Below are positions 48,993 through 52,658 of a DNA stretch of 64,000 nt, piece after piece. The position numbers were made by a program, and so were the translations under genes. The notes under the pieces are model-generated. The model saw only the letters and a list, made by a program, of their open reading frames with translations. It searched no databases and was not told the DNA's origin. The DNA comes from Smithellaceae bacterium (GTDB taxonomy: Bacteria; Desulfobacterota; Syntrophia; Syntrophales; Smithellaceae): assembly GCA_030690945.1 (NCBI GenBank), contig JAUYFM010000021.1, forward strand, positions 1 through 64,000, read 5' to 3'. Position 1 is the first letter of the stretch, and each line of letters opens with the position of its first letter.

Positions 48993-49457
48993 TTATCGGG
49001 AGGCTATCATGTCTTCAACCATCGCGGCGGCATCACGCACACAGGGGCGGCAAACTAAACTGAAGCATTCGTTGTTTTTAAAATACGCCTGCCCATCCGG
49101 CGTGCTCAAGTCACAACCGCTTAATAATTCACGGCAAAGGCAGGAGCCGTGTTTAGCGGAAAAACGATTCATGAATTCGCGGATTTTCGCATACGCAATA
49201 TCCGTTTGGGCGCGTTCATCCTTTTCTCTCCTGCCGAATTTCAGGCCCAGCGCCATAATTCCGCCCGATACGGCGCCGCAGACTTCGCCCATGCGCCCCA
49301 TGCCGCCGCCAAAACCGCACGACAGCGCTAAGGCATTATCCACGTCCAGTCCCAATTTATCACAAAAGGGAAATAAAACGGACTGTGCACAATTGTAGCC
49401 TTCCACAAATTTTGCTTCGGCAATTTCAGGATGTTTTTTCATGGCCATTCCTTTCAA
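48993..49457 (-). CDS. C_GCAxxG_C_C family protein
   Basis: GYNCAQSVLFPF..SCGFGGGMGRMGEVCGAVSGGIMALG. Confidence 0.9.
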   Translation of the reverse strand: MKGMAMKKHPEIAEAKFVEGYNCAQSVLFPFCDKLGLDVDNALALSCGFGGGMGRMGEVCGAVSGGIMALGLKFGRREKDERAQTDIAYAKIREFMNRFSAKHGSCLCRELLSGCDLSTPDGQAYFKNNECFSLVCRPCVRDAAAMVEDMIASR

Positions 49458-49600: not shown

Positions 49601-49633
49601 TTGACAAATCAAAATATAGTTGCATATTACAAC
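49601..49633 (+). promoter_or_regulatory. Putative promoter/operator of marR-hgcAB
   Basis: TTGACA at 49601-49606 followed by pseudo-palindrome GTTGCATATTACAAC (49619-49633) just before ATG 49638. Confidence 0.55.
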
Positions 49634-49637
49634 CATT

Positions 49638-50099
49638 ATGAAAAAGAACAAGGATAATCAAGTCGAATTAATCGATGTTTTCATCGGGCTTGCGCAGGCG
49701 ACGCGATGTTGCAGGCAGGATACCGCCTTCTGCGGCGGGGTGACTTTTCATCAGTTTGTCATCCTGGATGCCGTTGCCAAAAACAAAGAACTCAAGATTT
49801 CGGATTTGCACTCGCTTTTGGCCGTGGAAAAAAGCACGACGACCCGTCTGCTGAATCCGCTGCTCGCCAAAGGCCTTCTGAACAAAGCAAAGTCTATCTC
49901 TGATTCCAGAGCCTTTGTTCTGACACTCACAAAAAACGGCAGGGAAACGCATCACCGGGTTCAGGCCTGCCTTGAGGATTTTTTCAGTAAGGTTGCGGGC
50001 AATCTGCCGGCGAACAAGCAGGAGATTATTTTGCAGGCGGTGCAAACTTTTATCAGTGCCATCAAAAATGCATCCGGCACGTTTAATTGTTGTAGTTAA
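49638..50099 (+). CDS. MarR-family transcriptional regulator, Cys-rich
   Basis: wHTH LKISDLHSLLAVEKSTTTRLLNPLLAKGLLNKAKSISDSRAFVLTLTKNGRE; Cys at CC..C and C-terminal CC. Confidence 0.85.
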   Translation: MKKNKDNQVELIDVFIGLAQATRCCRQDTAFCGGVTFHQFVILDAVAKNKELKISDLHSLLAVEKSTTTRLLNPLLAKGLLNKAKSISDSRAFVLTLTKNGRETHHRVQACLEDFFSKVAGNLPANKQEIILQAVQTFISAIKNASGTFNCCS

Positions 50100-50119
50100 T
50101 GTTATCGAGGGTATCCAAT

Positions 50120-51289
50120 ATGGAGAAAAATAAAAAGAATCTTAGTCCGGCCGACAAATTTGAGTTTCCGGTCATCCAGGAACAGACCAGTTGTGGGTGC
50201 GGCACAAGCACCGCACCCAATGCCGTTTATACGATGCCCCGGCTGGATCAATCTTTTGTCTCGGGATCGATGACCACACCGGCAGGCGAACTGCCCAAAG
50301 TATCATCAGTACTGACCCGGCATGACCGGTGGGGGACAATCAAGGCCCGCCTGGGCGCCGGTAGGATGCATTACATCGTTGATCCCGGACTTTATGCTTT
50401 GGGCCATCCGGATGCTCAAGCGCCCATCCTGGTTACCGCCAATTACAAAATGAGCTTTGACTATCTGCGGCAGGCGCTCGCGGGCCGCAATGCCTGGATT
50501 CTGGTTTTGGATACCAAGGGCATCAACGTATGGTGTGCGGCAGGGAAAGGCACATTCGGCACGGAAGAACTCATCCAGAGAATAGAGACGAGCGGCCTTA
50601 AAAAAGTCGTCGATCACAGAAAACTCATTCTTCCCCAGCTGGGAGCGCCCGGCGTGGCGGCGCATCAGGTCAAACAGTTCACCGGCTTCAAGGTGTATTA
50701 CGGCCCCGTGCGCGCGGCGGACTTGACGGATTATCTTGACGCCGGATTAAAGGCCACAAAAGAAATGAGAATTATGGTTTTCCCGTTAAAAGACCGGGCG
50801 GTGTTAATTCCCCTTGAGCTTCTGATCACGGCTAAACCCTTCATTCTTGTGTCACTTGCTCTTTTAATTCTGTCGGGCATCCTGGGACAATCTGGATTTC
50901 AGACAAACATTTTCCATGATGGATTATTTGCCGTCGGGGCGCTGGCCTGCGCTATCCTGGGCGGTGCGGTGATCAATCCACTGCTATTACCTTATATTCC
51001 CGGACGCGCTTTCTCTGTCAAGGGGCTTATCATCGGGCTGGTCATTGCCTTAGGACTGATTTATCTGCGCGGTATTGATGTGCAGCTCTGGGCGGGTCGC
51101 GCGGAAGCACTGGCTTGGCTGCTGATTATTCCGGCGGTATCGGCTTATCTGGCCATGAATTTTACCGGCTGCTCAACCTATACATCGCTTTCCGGTGTAA
51201 AAAAAGAAATGCGGTTTGCTTTGCCTCTGGAAATGACGGCGGGGATTCTCGGTCTGGCCGTATGGATAACATCATTAATCATGACATAG
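50120..51289 (+). CDS. hgcA: HgcA, corrinoid membrane protein for mercury methylation
   Basis: Cap-helix motif NVWCAAGKGTFGTEELI; corrinoid domain plus C-terminal TM region; followed by hgcB. Confidence 0.94.
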   Translation: MEKNKKNLSPADKFEFPVIQEQTSCGCGTSTAPNAVYTMPRLDQSFVSGSMTTPAGELPKVSSVLTRHDRWGTIKARLGAGRMHYIVDPGLYALGHPDAQAPILVTANYKMSFDYLRQALAGRNAWILVLDTKGINVWCAAGKGTFGTEELIQRIETSGLKKVVDHRKLILPQLGAPGVAAHQVKQFTGFKVYYGPVRAADLTDYLDAGLKATKEMRIMVFPLKDRAVLIPLELLITAKPFILVSLALLILSGILGQSGFQTNIFHDGLFAVGALACAILGGAVINPLLLPYIPGRAFSVKGLIIGLVIALGLIYLRGIDVQLWAGRAEALAWLLIIPAVSAYLAMNFTGCSTYTSLSGVKKEMRFALPLEMTAGILGLAVWITSLIMT

Positions 51290-51297
51290 GAGCAATA

Positions 51298-51624
51298 ATG
51301 GGAAACATGGTTTATCTGAAAAATGTCGCAACGCTGGCGATGGACACGACCAAATGCACCGGCTGCGGACTTTGCCTGGATGTCTGTCCCCACAATGTAT
51401 TTAAAATGAATGGAAAAAGCGCGAAAATTGCGGATCGCGATGCTTGTATGGAGTGCGGCGCTTGCAGCCGAAATTGTCCAGCGGACGCGATCAGCGTTCA
51501 ATCCGGCGTCGGCTGCGCGGCTGCCGTCATTAACAGCCTGCTGGGACGCAACGGCGGCGAATGCTGCTGCGGGCCGCAAACGGATAGCTCAAGTGCGCCC
51601 AGAAGCGGCGGCTGTTGCGGCTGA
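51298..51624 (+). CDS. hgcB: HgcB, 2[4Fe-4S] ferredoxin for mercury methylation
   Basis: CTGCGLCLDVCPHNVF and CMECGACSRNCPADAI; Cys-rich tail ECCCG...GGCCG. Confidence 0.94.
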   Translation: MGNMVYLKNVATLAMDTTKCTGCGLCLDVCPHNVFKMNGKSAKIADRDACMECGACSRNCPADAISVQSGVGCAAAVINSLLGRNGGECCCGPQTDSSSAPRSGGCCG

Positions 51625-51827
51625 GCTTTTCACTTGACAAGGGCTATACCCTCGCACGGGCCTGGCGGGAATATCTGGGATTGACCCAGAAAGAGGTCGC
51701 ATCAAGGATGGGAATCAGTCAGGCGGCGCTTTCGCAGATGGAATCAGGAGAAAAGAAACTCCGCAAGGCTTCGCTGGAAAAATTGGCCGAGGCCCTGGAA
51801 CTCAATGTTGAACAGTTGCGCGACTGA
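51615..51827 (+). CDS. XRE-family HTH protein, likely N-terminally truncated antitoxin type
   Basis: AREYLGLTQKEVASRMGISQAALSQMESGEKKLRKASLEKLAEALEL; starts by overlapping hgcB 3' end. Confidence 0.7.
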   Translation: MRLSFSLDKGYTLARAWREYLGLTQKEVASRMGISQAALSQMESGEKKLRKASLEKLAEALELNVEQLRD

Positions 51828-51902: not shown

Positions 51903-52658
51903 ATGAAAGGAAGCGGGATGAAAGACATACTTAAGAAAATCGATTCGATCAAAACAAAGATTGATGCAAACAGGCCGCTGGATTCTCACATGGTTAAACA
52001 GCTTCGGGAATATTTCCGAATCGGCATGACCTATTCAAGCAATGCCCTGGAAGGAAACTCTTTAACCGAAACGGAAACGAAGATCGTCATTGAAGACGGA
52101 ATCACCATTGGCGGCAAGTCGGTCAAAGATCATCTTGAAGCTTTGGGACATTCAGAGGCGTATGATTTGCTTTTCCGGTTGGCTAAACATCAAGACATTT
52201 CAGAAGCGAATATCAAAGAACTGCATCGGTTGTTTTATTATCGGATTGACGAGGATCAGGCCGGGAAATACCGGAAACAAAAAATCATCATTACCGGCAC
52301 AACCTTCATTCCCCCAGCGCCCGAACAGATACCGGATTTGATGAAGTCGTTTGTTGCCGGGATACCCGATGACCGGTCAAAGCATCACCCCGTTGAATAC
52401 GCGGCAATCCTTCATCGAAAACTTTTGACCGTTCACCCCTTTATTGACGGAAACGGACGGGCGGCACGTCTATTGATGAACCTTGCCTTATTGCAGGCAG
52501 GCTACCCCGTGGCGATTATTCCCCCGGTCTTGCGGCGCGAATATCTGGACACCCTGAACAAAACCCACAAGAACGATTTTAAACCATTCAACAAATTTAT
52601 TGCCGGTGTCTGCTATGAATCAGCAAAAGAATATCTAAGGCTTCTTGGAGGAAGTTAA
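51903..52658 (+). CDS. Fic-family protein
   Basis: HPFIDGNGRAARLLMNLALL; N-terminal SSNALEGNSL inhibitory-type motif. Confidence 0.93.
   Translation: MKGSGMKDILKKIDSIKTKIDANRPLDSHMVKQLREYFRIGMTYSSNALEGNSLTETETKIVIEDGITIGGKSVKDHLEALGHSEAYDLLFRLAKHQDISEANIKELHRLFYYRIDEDQAGKYRKQKIIITGTTFIPPAPEQIPDLMKSFVAGIPDDRSKHHPVEYAAILHRKLLTVHPFIDGNGRAARLLMNLALLQAGYPVAIIPPVLRREYLDTLNKTHKNDFKPFNKFIAGVCYESAKEYLRLLGGS

Follow-up and report, generated by a model that had tools for sequence, protein, structure and literature searches.

A MarR-family regulator gene and a conserved palindromic operator upstream of hgcAB in a Smithellaceae bacterium: a putative regulatory unit for mercury methylation genes

In the window, i.e., the whole stretch of 64,000 nucleotides of Smithellaceae DNA that was analysed, the mercury methylation genes hgcA and hgcB are preceded by a gene for a MarR-family transcriptional regulator, and marR-hgcA-hgcB (49601-51624) probably constitute one transcription unit in which MarR would act as a thiol- or metal-sensing, autoregulated repressor dedicated to hgcAB, a reading given a probability of roughly 0.78. 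We infer co-transcription, repression, sensing with its ligand, and Hg methylation from the genes, their neighbouring DNA and their relatives. The novelty is best placed in the detail of the regulatory arrangement, as hgcAB itself is known. HgcAB produces the neurotoxin methylmercury, and a regulator of its own that binds at a defined site would offer a direct handle on the signal that switches hgcAB on in syntrophs, a group prominent among the hgcA carriers of peatlands (PMC7438021, PMC8524442). An earlier note had reported the hgcA-hgcB pair at 50120-51624, an interval that omits the upstream marR and its promoter and operator (49601-50099), by position part of the same transcription unit.

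The marR gene (49638-50099, forward strand) encodes 153 residues from the ATG at 49638, ends 20 bp ahead of hgcA and is the first gene of a likely three-gene operon. Its open frame reaches back to a TTG at 49620, and the ATG is the likely start since the bases before it belong to the operator. The protein scored above the cut-offs of two Pfam MarR families (PF01047, 35.0 bits against 24.6, E=1.3e-8; PF12802, 32.8 against 27), and its predicted structure, a monomer model with a pLDDT of 84 that is informative on the fold but not on cysteine geometry, has the winged-helix MarR fold and matches MarR proteins in the PDB. ArsR (PF01022) was absent among the Pfam and NCBIfam matches of this upstream regulator, which were to MarR families instead, and no close marR paralogue was found in the host genome. 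Six cysteines are present at positions 24, 25, 32, 111, 151 and 152, among which C32 and C111 are invariant in 42/42 loci and C151 is conserved in 41 of the 42, with C24, C25 and C152 present in most of them.

The candidate promoter of the operon is of the sigma-70 type, TTGACA-16 bp-CATATT (49601-49628, forward strand), with 10/12 consensus positions matched. As a match at a single locus it is at chance level (2 found versus 2.6 expected), and its support therefore comes from conservation across loci. Since just 9 nt separate the -10 element from the marR ATG, the mRNA probably has little or no leader. Overlapping this element is a candidate palindromic operator, TAGTTGCATATTACAACCA (49617-49635), with the core GTTGCATATTACAAC at 49619-49633, which is conserved upstream of marR; the putative MarR target site reads GTTGTATNATACAAC, and the host copy is imperfect as a palindrome (GTTGCA...TACAAC). 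The consensus of the relatives is TAGTTGTATNATACAAC(C/T)A, and the wider consensus TAGTTGTATNATACAACTA takes in the -10 hexamer (TATNAT) and stops 1-4 bases short of the marR ATG.

Conservation of this site closely follows the regulator gene. The core GTTG(T/C)A-NNN-TACAAC was recovered at the promoter in 40/40 MarR loci whose upstream DNA was readable (37 strictly, three with one change), and in 1/39 hgcA loci lacking MarR. A TTGAC(A) box precedes the palindrome by 12-14 bp in 37 of the 40 loci, and the combination of TTGACA and palindrome occurred once in the window and in none of 100 shuffles. The host genome, at 3.15 Mb, contains a single exact copy of the core; across the class (155 genomes), exact cores were present in 46/56 genomes with MarR versus 11/99 without it, and a reversed control pattern was almost absent. 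A wider regulon in the host genome was considered and rejected, as the exact core is single and near matches with up to two mismatches were about as frequent as those of the reversed pattern.

Some occurrences of the palindrome depart from the common arrangement. The single MarR-less locus with the core lies on a Nitrospinota-labelled contig (L045:3856), where the palindrome is directly 5' of hgcA with no adjacent marR, and hgcB is located ~730 bp downstream of hgcA. Perfect operator copies with a TTGACA box also occur away from hgcAB in two relatives (L162:2735 and L161:1500), and the site may therefore not be confined to hgcAB in all genomes; the L162 copy sits just ahead of an IS1595-like transposase gene and might represent a captured promoter or a further target.

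In the proposed mechanism, a MarR dimer would occupy the palindrome and thereby block the -10 element of the marR promoter, limiting transcription of both its own gene and hgcAB. The MarR cysteines suggest that a thiophilic metal(loid) or oxidation of thiols would release the protein, once C32, C111 and C151 (plus C24, C25 and C152) bind a soft metal(loid) or become oxidised. OhrR, MexR, AbfR, AdcR and ZitR are precedents for thiol or metal sensing in MarR proteins. These regulators share the fold with the present protein, being among its structure matches, and have palindromic operators, comparable to the candidate site here; sequence identity is only ~15-25%, and the positions of the cysteines may or may not correspond. 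As for the enzymes under this putative control, the established mechanism, assigned here by homology, would have HgcA pass the methyl group of its cobalamin to Hg(II), with HgcB keeping the cobalamin reduced and handling Hg(II) via its cysteines.

The association of marR with hgcA was followed in 81 hgcA loci, comprising that of the window and 80 relatives, and MarR is immediately upstream in 42 of them, mostly with small gaps. Among the 155 genomes surveyed in the class, 56 matched the MarR profile, 79 had HgcA and 53 had both, and marR is directly upstream of hgcA on the same strand in all 53 genomes bearing both (Fisher p = 5e-18 for co-occurrence, not corrected for relatedness). Pairwise distances of HgcA and MarR are correlated (r = 0.85, 0/5000 permutations). 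Most MarR-bearing HgcA sequences fall into one supported clade of 41 rows in the HgcA tree, and a few MarR-bearing loci lie outside this clade or outside the class; in the three strongest cases from beyond the class, MarR, operator and hgcA have likewise stayed together. Only placement within HgcA was used from this tree and its root was disregarded; a CFeSP outgroup had been dropped because several of its frames were badly extracted, giving branch lengths of 10 and a meaningless root. The "Myxococcota" labels in the tree, which derive from submitter titles ("Deltaproteobacteria"), were likewise disregarded. MarR is absent from 26/79 hgcA-bearing genomes of the class, some of them incomplete, and is therefore not needed for HgcAB function.

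Three genomes contain MarR without hgcA, namely G045, where marR runs off the contig end, G059 with a decayed marR, and G138 with a remnant. In G059, which belongs to the same genus as the host, hgcAB is gone and the decayed marR and the operator remain (L165, G059:C250:42000-47000), flanked by enoyl-CoA hydratase and acyl-CoA dehydrogenase genes and a GAPDH-type gene, as around hgcAB in relatives. This shows that hgcAB was lost and the regulator left to decay.

The same flanks invite a reading of MarR as a conserved bystander, or as a ligand-sensing regulator of general metabolism that lies upstream of genuine hgcAB by happenstance, since genes for an acyl-CoA dehydrogenase, an enoyl-CoA hydratase and a phenylacetate-CoA-ligase-like protein occupy the other side of the neighbourhood, and many MarR proteins sense aromatic acids, with PcaV, HosA and BpsR among the fold matches. 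However, conservation of these acyl-CoA genes stops at the closest relatives, while MarR accompanies hgcA in 53 genomes and several families; the operator and the -10 element of marR overlap, and near-invariant cysteines would be unexpected in an aromatic-acid sensor. This reading is regarded as unlikely. It is also quite unlikely that MarR acts as an activator or a dual regulator of hgcAB instead of a repressor. MarR-family members can indeed activate as well, as some are generally known to do, but a palindrome that covers the -10 hexamer and ends at the start codon has the usual geometry of steric repression.

Regulators upstream of hgcA have been described before, and among the closest is an ArsR-like regulator in Pseudodesulfovibrio, for which PMC10349881 and PMC7438021, citing Gionfriddo 2023, report a location directly upstream of hgcA with evidence of co-transcription and hgcAB control. 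As described there, it resembles the present case in being a winged-helix regulator encoded directly 5' of hgcA, and differs in that the present one belongs to the MarR family, has a cysteine pattern of its own and comes with a separate conserved operator. If the proposed control is true, the MarR inducer would reveal a natural signal for hgcAB that is separate from ArsR control, which is tied to arsenic. In the close relative Smithella sp. SDB_sulfate1, a co-oriented regulator gene of ArsR type, by sequence appearance only, is found in the place of MarR 5' of hgcA (L017:3579-3968), and the type of regulator therefore appears replaceable; a gene for a small thioredoxin-like protein lies 3' of hgcB at the same locus.

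Dethiobacter alkaliphilus and Geobacter daltonii have MarR-family genes ahead of hgcA that receive a passing mention in PMC10349881; they are of the same family and in the same position, a likeness by description that does not imply orthology, and that mention describes no operator, cysteines or survey. In 112 genomes, McDaniel et al. 2020 reported a putative transcriptional regulator that is conserved ahead of hgcAB, occurs in Deltaproteobacteria too and is transcribed in peat (PMC7438021). It shares conservation and the position directly 5' of hgcAB with the present MarR and may or may not include it, as the family is not named in the text concerned. Within the literature consulted, nothing more specific than the reports above was found on hgcAB or hgcA together with MarR or a regulator. 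The balance is tipped slightly towards a previously uncharacterised, hgcAB-dedicated MarR-type sensor with distinct cysteines and an essentially single-target operator in Syntrophales and some other Desulfobacterota-related bacteria. The operator could further serve as a DNA marker for MarR-type hgcAB regulation in metagenomes.

The two structural genes were evaluated with curated equivalog families of NCBIfam, and both proteins passed, bearing out the claim of the pair at its reported place. HgcA (389 aa, 50120-51289, forward strand) reached 461.6 bits against a cut-off of 275 (HgcA_corrinoid, NF040863, E = 1.3e-138), and HgcB (108 aa, 51298-51624, forward strand), the 2x[4Fe-4S] ferredoxin of mercury methylation, reached 123.1 bits against 99 (HgcB_ferredoxin, NF040864, E = 3.1e-36). 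HgcA is the membrane corrinoid protein, whose CFeSP-like corrinoid domain corresponds to a Pfam CdhD match at residues 87-202 and contains NVWCAAGKGTF, i.e., the cap-helix motif N(V/I)WCA(A/S)GK with the Co-coordinating Cys, which is intact in 80/81 hgcA loci. Five candidate helices of a C-terminal membrane domain were recognised by hydropathy only, as hydrophobic stretches at residues 234-388, in agreement with the earlier description of a cap helix and C-terminal transmembrane helices. The description of HgcB also held, with the two CxxCxxCxxxCP motifs CTGCGLCLDVCP and CMECGACSRNCP, a GVGC and cysteine pairs in the C-terminal tail; at least one CxxCxxCxxxCP motif is kept in the matched stretch in 79/79 loci of relatives with an HgcB match. 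The gap between the two genes is 8 bp (51290-51297) instead of the 9 bp given in the earlier note.

Placement among CdhD/CFeSP paralogues, a check proposed along with the original claim, was also run, and HgcA scored 199.6 bits for the HgcAB-like fusion family (NF043039, cut-off 285) and 69.7 bits for the CFeSP gamma subunit or CdhD-type paralogue (NF003195, cut-off 306), the latter through a C-terminal domain match only. It is highly improbable that the pair represents an HgcA-like paralogue of the fusion family or CFeSP without mercury methylation, as might be argued from the C-terminal corrinoid domain common to HgcA and CFeSP (PDB 2h9a, matched by the HgcA corrinoid domain with E=1.9e-12) and from the apparent lack of another CFeSP large subunit in the host, which could suggest a substitute role, because the scores are far under both paralogue cut-offs and over those of HgcA and HgcB, hgcA and hgcB are two separate genes with no fused protein, and the cap-helix Cys and membrane segments are in place. 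By these family scores and motifs, the pair is a genuine mercury-methylation gene pair, and a Hg-methylating host is predicted from the identity of the genes. It agrees with known HgcAB (NF040863, NF040864) in passing the equivalog cut-offs and in the order hgcA-hgcB, the cap-helix Cys, the membrane domain and the Cys-tailed 2x[4Fe-4S] ferredoxin, and by sequence differs in nothing essential.

The host is a Smithellaceae/Syntrophaceae-type syntroph with a genome rated 100% complete and a single hgcA, and its nearest HgcA relatives, at 95-96% identity, come from Syntrophaceae/Smithellaceae-type metagenome-assembled genomes. Smithella and related syntrophs have been reported as hgcA carriers and as hgcA-expressing peat bacteria (PMC7438021, PMC8524442); the pair itself is therefore ordinary for such syntrophs. 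No CFeSP large subunit beyond HgcA's own domain was found in the host genome or in the listed genomes of its genus, so the methyl group of HgcA would need a route other than the classical CFeSP. Neither aprA nor merA had a match over the cut-off in the host genome, and classical sulfate reduction and mercuric reduction are thus not evident in the host. A dsrA match over the cut-off was located at G000:C57:2672-3829, with a weaker second match adjoining, and dsrA without aprA suggests that sulfite is reduced instead of sulfate, or that the gene has some other role.

Downstream of the pair, the frame of an XRE-type regulator (51615-51827) overlaps the end of hgcB and is followed by a Fic-domain gene (51903-52658); both were rejected as parts of the operon, as they do not adjoin hgcB in relatives. 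On the other side, a gene for a C_GCAxxG_C_C redox-active protein (48993-49457 of the window) is divergent from marR and adjoins it in the close relatives L002, L003, L005, L006, L007 and L049.
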